Assembly (NCBI GenBank): GCA_016213785.1
Contig: JACQZQ010000065.1
Coordinates: forward strand, 1 to 60,754
DNA length: 60,754 nt
Direction: 5' to 3'
Source of the DNA: Acidobacteriota bacterium
GTDB lineage: Bacteria; Acidobacteriota; Blastocatellia; Chloracidobacteriales; JADJPF01
Shown here: one piece after another, positions 1 to 16,896 of the stretch
Position numbering within the stretch: position 1 is the first letter of the stretch
Layout: every line of letters starts with the position of its first letter
Made by a program: the position numbers and the translations under genes
The notes under the pieces: model-generated
What the model saw: the letters and a program-made list of their open reading frames with translations, nothing else
Database searches by the model: none
What the model was told of the DNA's origin: nothing

Positions 1-77
1 ACCTGCTTGACGCTCTCTGGCGTTCTTGCCCATTCTTCTTCTGTTATTTGTGCCAATGTTTGCAGTGTTTGGTTCAT
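1..77 (-). CDS. Probable IS66-type transposase, N-terminal fragment cut by the window edge
   Basis: Reading leftwards from an ATG at 75-77, 25 codons are open to the edge and begin MNQTLQTLAQITEEEW, followed by ARTPESVKQ. A short helical start with the pattern 'T-x-E-E-W-x-x-T-P-x-S-V' resembles the N-terminus of many IS66-family transposases. This is recognition from memory on 25 residues only, so the family call is tentative. The ATG overlaps the TGA of the upstream lipoprotein gene (ATGA). No inverted repeat could be confirmed because the rest of the element is outside the window. Confidence 0.4.
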   Translation of the reverse strand, partial: MNQTLQTLAQITEEEWARTPESVKQ

Positions 78-880
78 CTCTGTTTTATTACCATGCTATT
101 CTTTTTTTTCAAAGACAGCTTACCCCTCTGAACGATTACCAAATCATAATACTCAGACCCTTGTTTAGGTATAAAAGCATATTTTGAGTCATAGCTATAC
201 AACTTTCTTGTTCTACCATCTGCCTCACCTTCATTATTACTTGATTTATCTAGTTCTAAAACCTTTTTCAATTCATTATTGACCTGTGTTATTAAAATTA
301 GGTTCTTATAGTTAAACCCAGAACCAGAATAAGCTGGATAAAGTAATATACCATAATGCATATCTCCTATCTTGACTAACTCATACTCCTCATTAATATG
401 CCCAAACTCACCATCTATTGTAATGTATCTTTGATCAATATCTAATTTCCATTCGTTATTAGCCTTAGAAAATAACATTCCACCAATAACAACACCACAA
501 GCATGACAATCTTCAAAATCTGAATAAGGTGATGAAATTGTAATAATTATTTTTTTATCAATATTGTTTTCCTTAAATGATTCTATTGCTAGTGGTTTTA
601 CATATAGTAATGAATCTTCATCTATTGCTAATGGGGTTTCCTCTATATCATATTTGTCTAAGAACTCTTTATTAGCTTTCCACTCTGACATATTTTTTAC
701 ATTATTATAACTACCAAAAACCATACGAAAAGCAGCATTTATATCTAGTTCACCAGTTATATTTTTTGCATTTGAAGTAGAGGTTTGTGATTTTTGTCCA
801 GAAGAATGTAGTTTATCGATATTATTTTGGGAACAGCTTGTAATTACTAATAGAATTACTATTAATAAATATTTACTCAT
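74..880 (-). CDS. Hypothetical lipoprotein
   Basis: The product has 268 residues from the ATG at 880. That start follows a GGAG ribosome-binding site at 887-890; the upstream in-frame TTG at 892 is less likely. The N-terminus is a lipoprotein signal (MSKYLLIVILLVITSCSQ) with Cys in a TSC lipobox, so the protein should be exported and lipidated. The rest is soluble and mixed alpha/beta, with one CHAC pair near the middle. I do not recognise a family. The gene lies downstream of an attC-like palindrome and its stop codon overlaps the start of a putative transposase, so its extreme C-terminus could have been altered by insertion. Its function is unknown. Confidence 0.7.
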   Translation of the reverse strand: MSKYLLIVILLVITSCSQNNIDKLHSSGQKSQTSTSNAKNITGELDINAAFRMVFGSYNNVKNMSEWKANKEFLDKYDIEETPLAIDEDSLLYVKPLAIESFKENNIDKKIIITISSPYSDFEDCHACGVVIGGMLFSKANNEWKLDIDQRYITIDGEFGHINEEYELVKIGDMHYGILLYPAYSGSGFNYKNLILITQVNNELKKVLELDKSSNNEGEADGRTRKLYSYDSKYAFIPKQGSEYYDLVIVQRGKLSLKKKNSMVIKQR

Positions 881-960
881 TTTACACTCCAAACTTATTG
901 CTTATTAAATGCAAAAACTAGCAGGCACACTACTAGCAAATAGTACTAACACATAAACTT

Positions 961-1078
961 ACCTAACAATCTTACTACTAGTACTTACTTTTACGCTAGC
1001 GCTAAGTTCAGTGGCGAGGAAAATCGGCGAGTGTTAACGGGCTGACTTTCCGAGTCCGCTGCAACGTTTGTTATCTGC
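961..1078 (-). repeat. attC-like imperfect palindrome (possible integron recombination site relic)
   Basis: This stretch is more GC-rich than its surroundings and folds into a long imperfect hairpin. On the + strand TTCAGTGG (1007-1014) pairs with CCGCTGCAA (1056-1064) with one G-T pair and one bulged base. GCTAGC (995-1000) pairs with GTTATC (1070-1075) with one mismatch and one wobble. GGAAA (1018-1022) pairs with TTTCC (1047-1051). An outer pair TAACAA (964-969)/TTGTTA (1069-1074) is an alternative, and ACCTAAC at 961-967 fits the attC core RYYYAAC. Paired R-type and L-type boxes with an extrahelical base are the layout of attC sites. The second core box is degenerate. No integrase gene is visible. 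Confidence 0.4.
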
Positions 1079-1142
1079 TTCTGGTCTTTCTTTGAGTTTT
1101 ACGCTGGATTGGGTGATCTTTCTTTTCATTCATCTCTAACAT

Positions 1143-1661
1143 CTAAGAACTCATAATAATCGTTAATAAATAAACTATTAAAATTAACTCAAGAAATGAA
1201 ATTGAACAGGATAAAATAAAAGATGCTTTTGGTTTCATATTATATGTTATTAACCCATATAAATATAAAAATATTAACCCTGGTATTAAACCAATCAAAG
1301 TTAAAATAAATCTTGGATATCTTCCAGGTGGTAATAATGAAAAACTAATTAACATAATAATAAACATTGTTGTAATTGTTGTTATTATTAAGCCTATTCC
1401 TCTTTTACCATCATGAATTGGGTCATTTCTTAATTTTTCAAGCCATTTATGATATTTATAAAAACTAAATTTTTTTGATTTATTACCTTTATCATTTTCT
1501 GATTCAATAGGCTTATAACTGTTCACTTCAATATTTAAGTCATATGGTTTATCCGAATATATATTTTCACACCTTTTGCAAATAAATGTAATTGGATCTA
1601 ATAAATCTGTTTGATGACAAATTCTACATTTATCTTGATTTTGCTCTTTATTTATTTTCAT
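1143..1661 (-). CDS. Hypothetical zinc-ribbon membrane protein
   Basis: The product has 172 residues. Two CxxC pairs near the N-terminus (CRIC and CKRC, about residues 12-31) form a probable zinc ribbon. A basic, hydrophilic stretch follows to about residue 85. Three hydrophobic segments fill the C-terminal half (about 89-111, 116-138 and 147-170), so it is probably an inner-membrane protein with a cytoplasmic zinc ribbon. An AAAGGAAAA ribosome-binding sequence precedes the ATG. Just 3' of the gene is the attC-like palindrome, and 5' of it (1711-1731) is a shorter sequence like one arm of that palindrome. It could therefore be a captured gene cassette. No functional family is recognised. Confidence 0.6.
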   Translation of the reverse strand: MKINKEQNQDKCRICHQTDLLDPITFICKRCENIYSDKPYDLNIEVNSYKPIESENDKGNKSKKFSFYKYHKWLEKLRNDPIHDGKRGIGLIITTITTMFIIMLISFSLLPPGRYPRFILTLIGLIPGLIFLYLYGLITYNMKPKASFILSCSISFLELILIVYLLTIIMSS

Positions 1662-1784
1662 TTTACATTATTTTCCTTTAGCTCTACGTAGTTCTATAGT
1701 ATTACCACAACTTACTTAGTCAGTGGCCGAACTAATATGTATGTCTATGAGCAAACCTACACTTTGAAAAAATTTACTTTTTAA

Positions 1785-4700
1785 TTATCCTAATCTTACA
1801 GAGATTAGTTTAGAAACTCCTGGTTCTTGCATTGTTACTCCATAAATGGATGAGGCGACTTCCATAGTACGCTTACTATGAGTAATTACTAAAAATTGTG
1901 TCATCTCACTCATTTGCTTTATTTTATAAGTAAATCGCCCTATGTTAATATCGTCTAATGGGGCATCAACTTCGTCTAATACACAAAATGGGCTAGGGCG
2001 AAAACGAAAGATCCCAAGAACTAAGGCTAGAGCAGTCATAGCTTTTTCACCTCCTGAGAGAAGTAAAATATTTTGCAGTTTTTTGCCTGGAGGTTGAGCA
2101 ATTATATCAATACCGCTTTCTAAAACATCATCTTCATTAATAAGAAACATTTCTCCTCGACCGCCACCAAAGAGTTCTTGAAACATTTCTGAGAAATTAA
2201 TATTAATTTTTTCAAAGGCTTCTCTAAACTTAATTCGTGAACGAATTTTAATCTCACGCAAGGCTTCTTCTGTAGCATTTATAGATTCTAAAATATCTGT
2301 ATATTGTTGCTGCAAAAAGCTTTGTCGCTGCTCTGTTTCTGTAAGCTCATCTAATGCCATCATGTTGACGGGGCCTAGGTCTGAGAGTTTATTTCGAGTT
2401 TCTAATAGTAATTGTTGAGCGTTAGCAACATCAGTTATTATAATTTCATTCTCTAATTCGCTACTAATTGAAGGTTTATTTTCAACTAAATTTATAATAT
2501 TTTCTGAAAGTTCATTTAAACAGTTTTGTGCTAGGTTATCTAACTGACTTTCTAGTTTGGCTTTTTCAACCTGAGCACTAGATTTATTTTCTTTGATTTC
2601 AGCTATTTGTTTTCTTAGTTTGCTAATTACTTCTTCTTGGTCTGACGCAATTTCTCTTGCTTTAGCTAGTTTGCTTTCGGCAATTTCTACATTCTTTTTT
2701 GCTAATACTATTTCTTTTTCTAAATTGCTAGCTACGTTTTCAGCAATAATAAGACTATCTTTTAACTCTTCTTTACGTTCTTTTAACTGAATAACAGTAG
2801 AAGAAACTTCTTCACTATGTTTTTTTAGTTGTTCTCTTTCATCCTCTAGTTTTTTTAGAGATAGAAGAAAAGCTTTTTTGCGTTCCTGTTGAGTTGCATT
2901 AAGTGTACGGAGTTCAGAAAATTTTTGACTAGCTAGTTCTACATTTGGCTTTAGTTTAGCTATTTCTATTTTCTTTTTTTCAAGTTTTTCTTGAATTTCT
3001 TGACGATAATTTTCTGCCTTGATTACATCCTCAGTAGTTAGCTTAAGTTTTTCCTCTAGGTTTACTATTTCTTTCTCTGTTTGCTCAAGTTGCAAAGTTA
3101 TTGATTTAATCTGTTGTTGATTTCGCTCTAAATCTTTAGAACCTTGTGATAGTTCAACACGACGAGCCGCTAAGGTCTTTTCCTCAGAGCGCAGTAGAGA
3201 ATCTATTTCTTTTTTCTTTTCTTCTAAAGAGAGTTCTTTTTCTTTTTGTTTAGTTAATTGAGCTATAGCTTTATCTTTTTCTGTCTCTAAATCAATTAAA
3301 CTATCACTAAGCTGTTTTATTTCTCGCTTAAGTTGAAGTACGTTAGCTGTACTAGTAGTACTTCCTTTTGTAACTAGTAGTTTACCACCTCTTACTTGCT
3401 CGCCTTGAAGAGTAAAAACTAGGATGTCTTGGTTATTTATAGAAAACTCTAATGCATTTGCTAAGTCATTTATAATTAATGCTTTACTTAGCTCAGGAAA
3501 TACTTGTCTAAATAACACTTGATGTTTATCACTTAAACCTAATAAATCTAACAGGTTTAATAAATTTTGGTTATCAGTCGCAGTATCATTTATTTTTCCA
3601 TTAAACTTTTTATTATCAATAAGTAAAAAACCAACTTTATTTGCTTTTTGTTTAGCTAACCAATCCATTGCGTTAACTGCGTCATTTATATTATTTACCA
3701 AAATTGTTTGTAAAATATCACCTAAGAGTTGTTCCACTAGCATTTCATTCCTAGGTAAAACATTTAATATATCAGCTAATGTGCCGACTAAATTAAACTG
3801 AGCTTGTATTTTTTTATTACCAAGTAATTTTTGTACAGACTCGCTAAAATAGGCTTGTTTTTCATTAAGTTGATTTAGGGAGTTTAAGCGATCTTCTGTT
3901 CTAGAATGCTCTCGTGTTAACTCATTAAGTGTTTTTTGGCGTTCTAAAGTTTTTTGTTTTGCTATTTGAAGTTCATCATTAACACTATCAAGTTCAGCTA
4001 AAAAACTTTCTACTCGATCTTCAGAATTAGATAAATTTTTACGTAGTTGTTCATAATCTGACTTAGAAGATAAAACTTGCTCTTGAGCTTTTTTTAAGTC
4101 GTTATTTAAGTATTCTTTATGTCTTTCTGTACGTTTTTGATTATCTAGGAGTTGTTGTTTTAGGTTTTTTAATTTTTCAGTTTTACTTACTTCTATAAGC
4201 AATTGATTTTGGAGTTGTTCTAGCTCTTTTTCTAAACCTAGTAACTCTGTTTGAGAACTTCTATAAACAGTTTCCTGGCTACTTAACTTGGTAGAAAGTT
4301 CATTTATTTGAATATTTACCTTTTCTAGCTCTTCGCTGGAGTTTAGAATTTCATCTTTATTTATATTAATTTTTTGAAAAGTATTTTCTATATCTTTTTC
4401 AGATTGAAAAATTCTAATTTCTACATCTTTTTCTTGTTCTTTTTGGTGAGTTAAACGGCTAATGGTTCTTTCTGACTCAATTTGTAAATCTTTAGAATGA
4501 GTTTTAGCCTGTTCTAAGGTTTCTGTAATTTTATCTATTTCTAGTTGGCTATTGCGATAGTTAATTTCTTGATTATTAAACTCAATTGATAGTTTTTCTT
4601 CTGTTTCTAGCAAAGTTTTTAAGTTTATTTCAATATTAGATAAAAGCTCTTTTAAGCGATAAAACTCATTAATAAAAATATATTTTAAGTAATGTCTTAT

Positions 4701-10230: not shown

Positions 10231-11994
10231 ATGCAAGGCTCACTTTCCCTAGTCCCACTCCCAGAAGTACTTCGTGTAATTTACAATGAGCGTCGCAACG
10301 GCGAATTAATAGTAAGACGTTCTACAGAAAATGGAAATATTGAAAAGCACGTATATTTTGAGCGTGGACAAGTAGCTTTTGCTTCTAGTAGTCAACCAGA
10401 AGACCGCATAGGGGAAACTTTAGTACGCTATAACAAACTAAGTAGAGAGCAACTTAATCAAATTTTTACCCAACTTCCTCCAGGACAAAGATTAGGGAAA
10501 GCTTTAGTTGATTCTAGTATATTAACCGAAAGAGAACTTGTTAATTATGTAACACTTCAGTTTATTGATATTATCTATTCATTATTTACTTGGAAAGATG
10601 GAACTTATCAGTTTAATAGCGGGGAAAATAATGCTCCCGAAGAATTAAAACTAAAATTTTCTACACCAACAATTATACTAGAAGGAATGCGTAGGGTTAA
10701 TGATTTTGAGTTGGTTAGAAAAGGGATTGGGTCAGCAGCAAAACTACTACATACTACTACAGCAGGACGCTCTAAAATCCAAGCTATAGCATTTAACCCC
10801 TTAGAATTAAACTTAATGAATATGGCTAAAGAGCCTGTTGATCTATTAAAAATACTAGTAAATTGTAAAGAAAGACCTGAAAAAGTACTACAATCTATTT
10901 ATAGTTTGCTAGTTATAGGAATGTTAGAACAATTAGATGATCCTCAAACAACTCTTGAAACCCCACAACAAGTTGCTGTTCTTTTCCCTGGCTCAGATAT
11001 AACAACAGCCGAAGTAGAAGCTATAAGAAATAGAATAATCTCCCGCGATCCTAGAACTATTTTAGGAGTACACCCCCAAAATAACATTAATGAAGTTTAT
11101 GATGCATATTTAGCACTAGCAACAAAGTTTCATCCAGATAAATTTGTTAACGCTCCAAAGCAAATAAAATCAGAACTTGAGCTAATTTTTAATGCCATTA
11201 ATGAAAGCTATAATTTTATTCGAACTGCACCAATTGCACCTGCACCTGTTGTTATGGCACCTCCAAGCCCTCAAATGCCTAATTATCCTGCACCAAATCC
11301 TTATATGGCTCAACAGCCCTTACAACCCTTACAACCCTTACAACCCTTACAGCCCTTGCAACCTACACAACCTATGCCCAATACTAGGTTACAAACAGGT
11401 GGAATTAGAAACCCTTGGCAAACAGGAGCAGTTCAACAAGTCCAAGTTCCTCCAACAGGCGGCTACGCTACACCTCAACAGGGAGGTTATTACCCCCAAC
11501 AATCTAATCCAGCAATAAATCCTTTAGCTCAGCTACAATCAACTAAACGTAGCTCTATTACTCGTGCTGTATCTGATGAAATAGAATATAAAGGAGAAAA
11601 GGAAAGAAATCCTTTTTCAGCACTACAGAAAAAAAATCTTGATGTAAATCAAGCTATTAGCGAGCTTTTGGATTACTTTGACGATCGACGTGCCCCACTT
11701 TTTACTTCTGATGCCCTATCAAAATTATTACGTACTAAACCCCCTATGCATATCACACAAAAAGAATTAGTAGAAACTGTAATAAATTGGGCACGTAATA
11801 AATCAGCCGTTATGGGTTGGCCTATTGCAATTATTTTATTACGAGTAATTACTTTAATTAAACAGGCAGAAACGTCTCAACTAATAGAAGATTTTGATGG
11901 TGCGGTCTTTTATCCTAGCTTTATACAAGAATTAACAAATTATTGTACCCAACCTGAGGTAGAAGAATTTATGCGTGGGTTGAGTAGTTTGTAA
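10231..11994 (+). CDS. PATAN (DUF4388) domain protein with internal J-domain
   Basis: The product has 587 residues. The N-terminal 130 or so residues form a PATAN/DUF4388 domain (MQGSLSLVPLPEVLRVIY, then VYFERGQVAFASS and GQRLGKALV). Around 280-335 is a J-domain-like segment with HPD at 301-303, the motif that stimulates DnaK ATPase. A low-complexity Pro/Gln linker with five QPL units (about 361-378) comes next, then a helical C-terminal domain of about 130 residues without recognised motifs. There is no signal peptide, so it should be cytoplasmic. PATAN domains occur in two-component and gliding/pilus signalling proteins. A paralogue with the same PATAN-J order lies at 16972-19236. Adapter or chaperone-recruiting signalling is inferred. 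Confidence 0.8.
   Translation: MQGSLSLVPLPEVLRVIYNERRNGELIVRRSTENGNIEKHVYFERGQVAFASSSQPEDRIGETLVRYNKLSREQLNQIFTQLPPGQRLGKALVDSSILTERELVNYVTLQFIDIIYSLFTWKDGTYQFNSGENNAPEELKLKFSTPTIILEGMRRVNDFELVRKGIGSAAKLLHTTTAGRSKIQAIAFNPLELNLMNMAKEPVDLLKILVNCKERPEKVLQSIYSLLVIGMLEQLDDPQTTLETPQQVAVLFPGSDITTAEVEAIRNRIISRDPRTILGVHPQNNINEVYDAYLALATKFHPDKFVNAPKQIKSELELIFNAINESYNFIRTAPIAPAPVVMAPPSPQMPNYPAPNPYMAQQPLQPLQPLQPLQPLQPTQPMPNTRLQTGGIRNPWQTGAVQQVQVPPTGGYATPQQGGYYPQQSNPAINPLAQLQSTKRSSITRAVSDEIEYKGEKERNPFSALQKKNLDVNQAISELLDYFDDRRAPLFTSDALSKLLRTKPPMHITQKELVETVINWARNKSAVMGWPIAIILLRVITLIKQAETSQLIEDFDGAVFYPSFIQELTNYCTQPEVEEFMRGLSSL
11312..11364 (+). repeat. 9-bp tandem repeat coding QPL
   Basis: Five near-identical copies of a CAACCCTTA-type 9-mer encode Gln-Pro-Leu units in the linker of the PATAN/J protein. 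Copy-number change would keep the reading frame and alter only linker length. Confidence 0.85.
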
Positions 11995-12061
11995 AATCAA
12001 GTATAAATACTTATAAATAAATCATTTTATTAAATGCCAGAAACAGATAATAGCTTAAACT

Positions 12062-12763
12062 ATGCAAGAAGAAACACCTAAACCTATAAAGAAATCTCGT
12101 AAAGTGCAAATCTTAAAAGTTATCTTAACTTTATTTCTTTTACTAACTACTTGGGTTTTAGTAGATTTGTTTGGCCCCTGGTCTACTAACTTACGTAAGT
12201 TTGATCCTATTGTAATTGGTAAATTAGAAACAAAAATGTGGCGAGCTTATTATGACAAAAAGGCTTTACAGCTCTATTGGCTACTAGTTGAGATGTTAAG
12301 AACACAGAATAATTTACCTTTTTGGCAAGCTAACTTAAATGCTTATCGTGCAGCTAAAGCGGCGTTTGTTTTTAAAAAAGGTCAAAAACGTTCTGATTAT
12401 GAGCAAGCCATTCCTTATTTAATAGATTATTTTAATGCTCTTAATAAAATAGGTAACTTAAAAAATGATGCAACCCTTACAGCAAAACTAGAGCTAGAAT
12501 GGTGGATTGTACATCGTGAACGTAAGACTTATGGAGAAGAAGCTTTAGTAAACGCTATAGCAGCAACCACAGGCCAATTCTATAAGGTTGAGCCTAATTT
12601 ACTAAAAGACTATGCTAGCGCTCGTACTATAGCAATGTTACAAAGAGATGTTAAACAGGAAGCAGGTAAGGTTACAGAAGAAGATTGGAAATATATTGAG
12701 CAAAAACTGATTGAGGCTTACAGTTCTTTAGCTAAAGAACTTAATAAAGAAGAAATCAAGTAA
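12062..12763 (+). CDS. Hypothetical membrane-anchored protein
   Basis: The product has 233 residues. A short basic N-terminus is followed by one transmembrane helix (about residues 19-40, VILTLFLLLTTWVLVDLF), then a soluble alpha-helical domain rich in Trp, Lys and Leu that probably faces the periplasm. No recognised motif is present. It follows the PATAN/J gene by 67 bases on the same strand and could be co-transcribed. A convergent aldolase gene begins eight bases past its stop. The function is unknown. Confidence 0.65.
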   Translation: MQEETPKPIKKSRKVQILKVILTLFLLLTTWVLVDLFGPWSTNLRKFDPIVIGKLETKMWRAYYDKKALQLYWLLVEMLRTQNNLPFWQANLNAYRAAKAAFVFKKGQKRSDYEQAIPYLIDYFNALNKIGNLKNDATLTAKLELEWWIVHRERKTYGEEALVNAIAATTGQFYKVEPNLLKDYASARTIAMLQRDVKQEAGKVTEEDWKYIEQKLIEAYSSLAKELNKEEIK

Positions 12764-12770
12764 TTATATT

Positions 12771-13415
12771 CTATTTAATCTCTATAACAGATTTTATTAG
12801 TAATCTAGCTCTTTCAGCAATACTTGCATAATTATCATTACTAATATCGCCTGCTCTAAAGATGCTACCTCCAATGCCTATAGCAAAAGATCCTGCTTGT
12901 AGAAAATCTGCTACATTATTAACAGTAACACCACTAGCTGGAAGTAGTCTAACTTCTGGCATAGAATCTTTTAATGAGCGAATATAGGGAGCGCCGCCAA
13001 AAGCATATGCTGGAAAGACTTTAATTAAAGGAACTCCAAAATCCCAAGCTGACATAATTTCTGTTGGAGTAGCTGCACCAGCAATTGGAAAAATCTTTTT
13101 ACTAATAGAAAACTCTATAATGCTTGCACTAGTATGAGGAGAGGAAATAAATTGCGCTCCTCCCTTAATAGCTCTATCTGCACCATCTATTGAAATTACA
13201 CTTCCTGCTCCAACACGAATAGCATCTCCATATTTACGCCGTAGGTCAGAAATAACTCTTACTGCTCCTGGAGTTCCAAGTGAGACTTCTATAAGCTTAA
13301 TGCCTCCAACAATAGCGGCTTCTGCTGATTTAAGAGCAGTTTCTGCTGAGTCCGTTCTAACTAAAGCAAAAATTTTATGATGCTCAATAATACTTAATAT
13401 CGAAAAATCTATCAT
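12771..13415 (-). CDS. eda: KDPG/KHG aldolase family protein
   Basis: The product has 214 residues, the normal size for class I 2-keto-3-deoxy-6-phosphogluconate / 4-hydroxy-2-oxoglutarate aldolase, which splits KDPG to pyruvate and glyceraldehyde 3-phosphate. The (beta/alpha)8 landmarks are visible: LIEVSLGTP with the catalytic Glu, RVGAGSV, AGAATPTEIMSAWDFG, the Schiff-base Lys in LIKVFPA, and ASGVTVNNVADFLQAG. Where E. coli Eda has Arg49 (EVTLRT) this protein has Gly (EVSLGT), and Thr73 is Ser, so the substrate may differ. No edd or glucokinase is nearby. The divergence makes the exact substrate uncertain although the family is clear. Confidence 0.82.
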   Translation of the reverse strand: MIDFSILSIIEHHKIFALVRTDSAETALKSAEAAIVGGIKLIEVSLGTPGAVRVISDLRRKYGDAIRVGAGSVISIDGADRAIKGGAQFISSPHTSASIIEFSISKKIFPIAGAATPTEIMSAWDFGVPLIKVFPAYAFGGAPYIRSLKDSMPEVRLLPASGVTVNNVADFLQAGSFAIGIGGSIFRAGDISNDNYASIAERARLLIKSVIEIK

Positions 13416-15520: not shown

Positions 15521-16711
15521 ATGTCCATAGCCTTAGATATTTCACCTTTAGATAAGAGTGAATTAATTGCTAATCGTCGTTGGTTACATCAAAACCCAGA
15601 ATTAAAATTTCAAGAGCATAAAAGTTCTTGTTTTATTGCAGAAAAACTTACAGAGTTTGGTTATAAAATTCAAACTAATATTGCTAAAACAGGTGTAGTT
15701 GCTTTAGCTGATACAATGCGTCCTGGCCCTACGCTAATGCTAAGAGCCGATATGGATGCCCTACCAGTAAAAGAAGAAAACTCACTTGATTATGTTTCAA
15801 CTAATAATGGAGTAATGCATGCTTGTGGACATGATGGACATATGGCAATGCTACTTAGTGCAGCTAAACAGCTTTCTAAAATAACTCCAGAACTCTCTGG
15901 TAAACTTAAACTAGTTTTTCAACCAGGCGAAGAAGGAGGTAATGGCGCTTTAAGAATGATTGAGGAAGGAGTTTTAGAATCTCCTAAAGTAGATGCAGCC
16001 TTTGGAATACACCTGTGGAATGGTCTACCTGTAGGTACAGTTGGAGTTATAAATGGCCCAGTAATGGCTTCTGTAGATGAATTTAATATTGTAGTAAAAG
16101 GGCGTGGGGGACACGGCGCAATGCCCCATCAAACCATAGATGCTATTTTAGCCGCTTGCCAAATTGTTACATCACTTCAAACAGTTGTCTCACGTAATGT
16201 TAATCCTTTAGATTCTGCTGTAGTAACAGTTGGAAGCATTCGTGCAGGAGAAGCATTTAATGTAATTGCTGAAGAGGCTTTCCTGCGGGGTACTGTAAGG
16301 ACTTTTAGCAATGAGCTTTATAAGGAAATCCCTGATATTTTTAATAGGGTAGTTACTCATACAGCAGCAGCTCTTGGGGCTGAATGTACTATCAAATATG
16401 AAAGACTTGGGCCACCTACAATAAATAATCTAACTATGGCTGATTTTGTACGCCAAATTGCTTCTGAGGTTGTAGGAAAAGAAAATGTTATTTCTGATGA
16501 TCGTGCTCGGACTATGGCGGGTGAAGATATGGCTTATTTTTTAGCTAGGGTTCCAGGATGCTTCTTTTTTGTTGGTTCTCAAAATGAGTCTAAAGGCTTA
16601 ACTCATCCACACCATAGCCCATTTTTTAATTTTGATGAAGAAGCCTTACCTATTGGAGTAGAAATCCTTAAACGCATCACTACTAACTTCCTAAAACATG
16701 GAGAAAAATAA
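15521..16711 (+). CDS. M20 family metal-dependent amidohydrolase
   Basis: The product has 396 residues and belongs to the M20D (hippurate hydrolase / N-acyl-amino-acid amidohydrolase) group. Zinc and catalytic residues are visible: ADMDALPV with Asp near 77-79, MHACGHDGH (His100, Cys102, His104), the GEEGG glutamates at 137-138, and FGIHLWNGLPVG. The dimerisation domain lies at about 185-295. The late His of THPHHSPFFNFDEEAL is also present. There is no signal peptide, so it is cytoplasmic. It probably removes acyl groups from amino acids or related metabolites; the substrate is not readable from sequence. It is coupled to a small downstream membrane protein. Confidence 0.92.
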   Translation: MSIALDISPLDKSELIANRRWLHQNPELKFQEHKSSCFIAEKLTEFGYKIQTNIAKTGVVALADTMRPGPTLMLRADMDALPVKEENSLDYVSTNNGVMHACGHDGHMAMLLSAAKQLSKITPELSGKLKLVFQPGEEGGNGALRMIEEGVLESPKVDAAFGIHLWNGLPVGTVGVINGPVMASVDEFNIVVKGRGGHGAMPHQTIDAILAACQIVTSLQTVVSRNVNPLDSAVVTVGSIRAGEAFNVIAEEAFLRGTVRTFSNELYKEIPDIFNRVVTHTAAALGAECTIKYERLGPPTINNLTMADFVRQIASEVVGKENVISDDRARTMAGEDMAYFLARVPGCFFFVGSQNESKGLTHPHHSPFFNFDEEALPIGVEILKRITTNFLKHGEK

Positions 16712-16713
16712 GC

Positions 16714-16896
16714 ATGAAAACTAAAGCCCCTGGTATTATCGCAATAGTCATTGCATTAGGATTAATAGCTACAGGTATTTTTGTTAAGCGACAATTAGAT
16801 ATGCCTCAATATTTAATTATTTTCCATATCCTAGGCGGGTTATTACTTGTAACAGGAATTAGCCTTCTTTTTCTTGGCCGACAAAGTAAAGAATAA
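16714..16896 (+). CDS. Small two-helix membrane protein
   Basis: The product has 60 residues. Two hydrophobic segments (about 6-24 and 32-53) are separated by a short charged turn. It begins two bases after the amidohydrolase stop, with GGAG just upstream, so it is probably translated from the same mRNA. No family is recognised. The compact hairpin topology and its own ribosome-binding site support a real gene. Confidence 0.6.
   Translation: MKTKAPGIIAIVIALGLIATGIFVKRQLDMPQYLIIFHILGGLLLVTGISLLFLGRQSKE

Follow-up and report, generated by a model that had tools for sequence, protein, structure and literature searches.

Near the left end of the window (the whole 60,754-nucleotide stretch of DNA that was analysed, which is the entire contig C46 of a draft Acidobacteriota genome of 6,395,054 bases in 132 contigs), a GC-rich palindrome separates two minus-strand genes, one encoding a zinc-ribbon protein and the other a lipoprotein-like protein. 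A first-pass annotation, made from the sequence without database searches, proposed that the palindrome is an attC recombination site and that its neighbours are captured gene cassettes. The question raised by this locus is whether the palindrome belongs to an integron and, if so, where the remainder of that integron lies.

The palindrome and its sister sites

A search of the genome with window positions 940–1100 returned at least 40 matches including the window itself (40 of 113 candidates scored), and at least 39 sister copies had thus been found by plain DNA similarity before any covariance model was applied. In the window and 13 contig stretches, BLAST located 86 site copies, for which the consensus in the attC sense (the minus strand of the window) is GCCGAAC-AAAC-GTTGCAGCGG-...-CCGCTGAAC-TTNGG-GTTCGGC. 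The boxes at the two ends form an inverted pair, with GCCGAAC (49 of 86), GCATAAC (17 of 86) and GTCGAAC (9 of 86) at R'', and GTTCGGC (45 of 86), GTTATGC (18 of 86), GTTCGGT (12 of 86) and GTTCGAC (8 of 86) at R', the dominant R' form departing from strict GTTRRRY at one base. This order of boxes is the attC layout. Seventy-nine copies entered the model alignment (A1), seven of the 86 having been dropped (six with a short terminal part and one with an indel at R'), and on this alignment RNAalifold predicts an attC-like structure of 24 pairs; at 11 of these, one or more sequences differ on both sides of the pair.

The corresponding covariance model (R1) has at least 106 matches across the genome at E 0.01, at least 100 of them reaching 61 bits; these counts are lower bounds, 150 of 710 first-look candidates having been scored. 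Six weak matches of 25–38 bits are among those listed. The first-pass annotation had named a dispersed repeat unlinked to cassettes as the finding that would count against an attC site, and such a distribution was looked for and not found: of the at least 100 matches of 61 bits or more, 96 lie in arrays, and the four strong matches outside arrays comprise the window, two that follow single cassette-like ORFs (C44:16851 and C75:5494) and one near a contig end (C122:121946). The matches on C130 and C120, like that on C75, each follow an ORF. Within the order, R1 at E 0.001 matched nothing in 11 of 14 genomes (the present genome counted among the 14); the matches outside the present genome are two in the same-genus genome G001 and two weak ones in G010. 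One degenerate attC match in G001 (L092:1501–1582, 39.5 bits) lies between ORFs that by eye resemble a ParE-like toxin and an RNase H-like protein.

Judged by these alignments, the palindrome is a genuine attC site of 83 nt, with limits at 994–1076 on the minus strand. It was aligned with 78 sister sites and scores 84.3 bits with R1 on the genome (E 2.6e-23), a score that is partly by construction, the training set including the window copy and R1 being built from the same genome; unfiltered scoring of window positions 1–2000 gave 84.3 bits at the site and only 8.3 bits for the runner-up. The inner boxes first described for the palindrome, TTCAGTGG (1007–1014) and CCGCTGCAA (1056–1064) with one bulged base, are present, and its GC richness is borne out by values of 0.53 within 994–1076 against 0.31 at 1–993 and 0.25 at 1077–1784. 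The 79-site alignment and RNAalifold place the L boxes, on the minus strand, at 1056–1065 (L'', GTTGCAGCGG, with one unpaired base) and 1006–1014 (L', CCACTGAAC); the two are paired, the unpaired base is present and the terminal stem is variable. The R boxes flanking them, for which the standard forms are RYYYAAC (R'') and GTTRRRY (R'), are AGATAAC at 1070–1076 (mostly GCCGAAC in the arrays) and GCTAGCG at 994–1000 (mostly GTTCGGC in the arrays), both on the minus strand and both decayed, and neither window form is found in any other of the 86 aligned sites. The GTT of the R' box is the point at which an attC site is cut; in the window site it has become GCT. In our reading, the site in the window is an attC that has decayed, both of its R boxes being mutated. 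Accordingly, 994–1076 folds no better than shuffled sequences (z 0.09 on the plus strand, 1.39 on the minus strand), while an intact array sister folds better than its shuffles (z -3.40 and -2.67).

Some details of the original proposal had to be given up. Its outer boxes, at 961–967 and 1069–1075, are not the R boxes, which the 79-site alignment puts directly outside the L boxes; ACCTAAC (961–967) is separated from the true site by 26 nt, and with 114 instances of RYYYAAC on the two strands of the window together it has no evidential weight. For the span first drawn, 961–1078, neither strand folds better than its shuffled versions (z 1.46 and 1.00). The 'shorter arm' at 1716–1728, which had been taken for half of an attC, is covered by no covariance-model match, a chance-level R1 match at 1686–1720 (3.7 bits, E 6.5) overlapping only its first bases; it is the beginning of the zinc-ribbon cassette, directly inside the GTTCGGC box at 1726–1732 (minus strand).

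Cassette arrays and the integrase

The array sites number 96 on 14 contigs, all on one strand within each contig, and delimit 82 complete cassettes (median 689.5 bp, range 402–2172); the arrangement is that of an integron array, with several attC-ended cassettes in one orientation. Pfam searches of 20 of the 40 array ORFs of at least 100 aa assigned a family to nine. Rfam searches of 13 array contigs found parts of a group II intron only, all in L029, where RF02001, RF01998 and RF00029 lie at L029:5429–6020 inside the array cassette L029_c7. Single ORFs with attC-like flanks were also seen elsewhere. On C44 (L024:16180–16934), an ORF at 16288–16836 is bracketed by a 35-nt miniature attC (16180) and a full attC (16851); it lies far from the array, as though a cassette had been integrated at a second site. 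On C21 (L085:5211–5862), a similar single ORF is flanked on one side by a 54-nt miniature attC and on the other by a weak attC match (13.9 bits). Scattered cassettes could be explained by attG sites, which are targets that are neither attC nor attI (PMC12444791).

The first-pass annotation had left the impression of a genome without an integrase, but one is encoded on another contig, C39. Its ORF (11839–12798, minus strand, 319 aa) is full-length and is the sole IntI above the family cut-off in the genome, scoring 469.1 bits against TIGR02249 (cut-off 265). Only matches above the cut-off were counted, as matches below it occur in all 14 control genomes. The best solved relative of the protein is V. 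cholerae IntI4 (2a3v; E 2.2e-95 over residues 7–319). The gene shares its strand with the cassettes. Some 9 kb separate it from the array, whose nearest attC is at C39:2325–2409; the array's proximal junction (C39:3001–3011), 8.8 kb from intI in this assembly, does not adjoin the gene as an attI would. The intervening stretch holds a group II intron (RF02012, L023:3846–5964) with reverse transcriptase and HNH ORFs, an IS1-type transposase, an ABC transporter and two further ORFs to which Pfam assigns no family. The separation could be explained by the draft assembly or by later insertions.

The closest named relative is the Blastocatellia MAG isolate nzgw73, which has an 84% identical IntI; there intI lies between a sulfate adenylyltransferase gene and a PilZ-like gene (both named by eye). 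Strong similarity between the two intI loci is limited to the gene and about 20 nt upstream of it, and R1 at E 1 found no match on the 7.7 kb intI contig of nzgw73 or at the three other Acidobacteria loci searched.

The two cassettes of the window

Reading along the minus strand, the window presents an SMC-like gene (5552–1785, named by eye), a junction, the zinc-ribbon ORF (1661–1143), the attC site (1076–994), the lipoprotein-like ORF (892–74) and the end of the contig. The proximal junction next to the SMC-like gene, ATTAGTTCGGC (1726–1736), contains the canonical R box GTTCGGC at 1726–1732; this 11-mer has its sole copy in the window here and is the same as that at the proximal end of the array (C39:3001–3011). 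The zinc-ribbon cassette extends from about 1731 to 1000, and at about 732 bp is of array-like size. Its gene (1143–1661, 172 aa) has relatives in three array cassettes at 36–44% identity (blastp against six-frame ORFs of 17 loci; E 6e-10, 6e-5 and 4e-4), of which phmmer backs two (E 2e-8 and 3e-4) and gives the third E 0.045; a comparison of the protein with plasmids gave no match. The lipoprotein-like ORF (74–892, 272 aa), the second cassette gene, has no relative among the same six-frame array ORFs. Pfam has no family for either protein, and the window has no Rfam match at gathering thresholds. Bases 1–139 are the end of a repeated IS-like element that recurs with 99–100% identity where contigs C7 and C40 end, and the 3' end of the lipoprotein-like ORF is therefore chimeric from base 139 down, with its own attC unseen. 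At the end of C40 (L102), the same 139-bp repeat end abuts an ORF that by eye resembles the start of Cas1 and adjoins a reverse-transcriptase-like ORF.

Given about 100 sister sites and an intact integrase in the same genome, the two genes are very probably captured cassettes, and the two-cassette cluster is probably frozen because the R boxes of its attC are decayed and an IS-like end cuts the lipoprotein cassette. The central proposal of the first-pass annotation, an attC site beside captured cassettes, has thus held up on the sister sites at cassette spacing, the integrase, the start box at 1726–1732 and the relatives of the zinc-ribbon protein. We propose that a very large chromosomal integron, hosted by a Blastocatellia-like Acidobacteriota, includes window positions 1–1736 as a short and probably frozen cluster of cassettes, and put the probability of this reading at about 0.93. 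It rests on the same-strand arrays at cassette spacing, the 24-pair structure, IntI, the junction box shared with the array, the relatives of the zinc-ribbon gene and, as a control, the 11 of 14 genomes of the order without an R1 match; counting against it are the decayed R boxes, the lack of excess folding, an R1 score owed in part to construction, the distance of about 9 kb to intI, the lipoprotein without an array relative or a visible attC of its own, and the draft state of the genome.

Our working hypothesis, in which recombination activity, the order of events and loss of mobility are what we infer, is that IntI, encoded elsewhere on the chromosome, would bind attC as a single folded strand, here the plus strand, and cut it at the R' box, thereby moving circular cassettes. 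Downstream of the SMC-like gene, the zinc-ribbon cassette would have joined at the GTTCGGC junction; the lipoprotein cassette would have arrived after it. Later, both R boxes of the site at 994–1076 would have mutated and the repeated IS-like element would have inserted into the lipoprotein gene, leaving the pair probably immobile.

Two other readings were weighed. Many copies in one genome, and a GC-rich palindrome in an AT-rich one, are what an ordinary dispersed repeat of the REP or MITE type would also give, but such a repeat would not account for arrays on one strand at cassette spacing, for variants of R'' and R' of attC type or for an IntI gene, and we hold this reading to be extremely improbable. 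That the palindrome is instead the transcription terminator of the zinc-ribbon gene is very improbable: it does lie 66 nt after the stop codon, but no T-run follows the stem on the strand of the gene, and conservation in 79 sites spans about 83 nt including the R boxes. A side role in termination is possible.

A further reading accepts the integron and makes the window cluster one broken end of its main array, not a separate insertion, cut by the assembly at the repeated element. The window is indeed a whole contig that ends in a repeat common to two other contig ends. However, C39 and the window each have a proximal junction from which cassettes read away from the flanking genes, and one array allows one such end; moreover, the window site ranks 85th by R1 score of the 106 matches listed, and nearly all array sites are less decayed. 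We therefore regard a broken array end as unlikely, and prefer the separate, probably frozen cluster of the same integron.

Gene-free cassettes and comparison with known integrons

Of particular interest are the cassettes without a gene. No ORF of 100 aa occurs on either strand in 42 of the 82 complete cassettes, and in most of these 42 the longest ORF is within the range of shuffled sequences. For Vibrio arrays, gene-free shares of 4–49% are cited (PMC4909258), and the 51% observed here is at or just beyond that known range. Many of the gene-free cassettes form families that are 67–92% alike. By a scripted search, 18 of the 82 cassettes contain a hairpin interrupted by an internal mismatch, and 17 of these (one unrelated hairpin was dropped) were aligned as A3. 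The hairpin has an outer stem, a C.C mismatch, a 5-bp inner stem and a loop of 3–4 nt, and is orientation-specific. Ten of its 12 pairs have double-sided changes, and it scores 0.583 for covariation, where shuffles reach 0.219 (a test inflated by the relatedness of the cassettes) and slid versions at most 0.124; the 91.7% of paired cells in A3 is by construction, the hairpins having been chosen for pairing.

At E 0.1, a model of the hairpin (R2) matches the genome at least 29 times, a lower bound (150 of 411 first-look candidates scored), and all those listed are on array contigs (L018–L030, L079 and L080), for example C12:1112–1157, C80:8496–8541 and C88:6154–6199. Among the matches listed, 25 are on the attC strand and four are reverse readings of the same places. 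Within complete cassettes lie 21 of the 25 places, which include the training hairpins, and these fall in 19 of the 42 gene-free cassettes against two of the 40 with an ORF of 100 aa (Fisher p 2.7e-5, the cassettes not being independent). These two ORF-bearing cassettes hold a transposase (L019_c3) and a group II intron (L029_c7). The exact 13-base core of one hairpin variant occurs six times in the genome, three per strand, always on array contigs or at the array end of C39. At E 0.001, R2 matched three of 98 genomes of the class, namely the present one and, with one match each, G353 and G405.

In the literature consulted, gene-free cassettes carry promoters or small RNAs (including PMC4909258, PMC12444791), and no such hairpin family is described there. 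It is tempting to speculate that what this integron multiplies, through an integrase apart from its array, is not genes but a family of non-coding cassettes, whether a small RNA or a terminator/insulator, a suggestion we offer tentatively and rate somewhat below even odds. The ORF-less cassettes of Vibrio, Treponema and Xanthomonas (sRNA-Xcc1) likewise have an attC and no gene; those described here differ in that many share a covarying hairpin, confined in this genome to array contigs among the matches listed.

Taken as a whole, the system resembles the sedentary chromosomal integrons of the Vibrio superintegron type in its approximately 100 near-identical attC sites, at most one gene per cassette, single-strand orientation and full-length IntI, for which V. 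cholerae IntI4 is the best relative of solved structure. It differs in its Acidobacteriota host, an array known in pieces, gene-free cassettes at 42 of 82, and an intI that shares the cassettes' strand but stands about 9 kb away from them. The window alone resembles a CALIN, a cluster of attC sites without an adjacent integrase, in having an attC and cassettes but no intI on the contig. It has one full attC, however, the junction at 1726 being a simple box, which is below the threshold of two attC sites given for IntegronFinder 2 (PMC9024848), and a related integrase is present in the genome.

Integrons in Acidobacteriota have already been published (PMC8352920, PMC8618304, PMC9176274), and among 396 Acidobacteriota genomes TIGR02249 matched 120 at E 1e-60 and 113 above the cut-off, with no such match in the 14 named control genomes. 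Integrons are known and common in the phylum, and that of the window is not new as a kind; in the integron and Acidobacteriota literature, judged largely by titles and the beginnings of abstracts, no paper on a large Blastocatellia integron was found. A chromosomal integron of about 100 sites can evidently be spread over small contigs while a single window shows one worn site. The hairpin-bearing, ORF-less cassettes provide a concrete and testable case for the role of gene-free cassettes, and the presence of IntI in 120 of 396 Acidobacteriota genomes means that cassette reservoirs may be common in the phylum.
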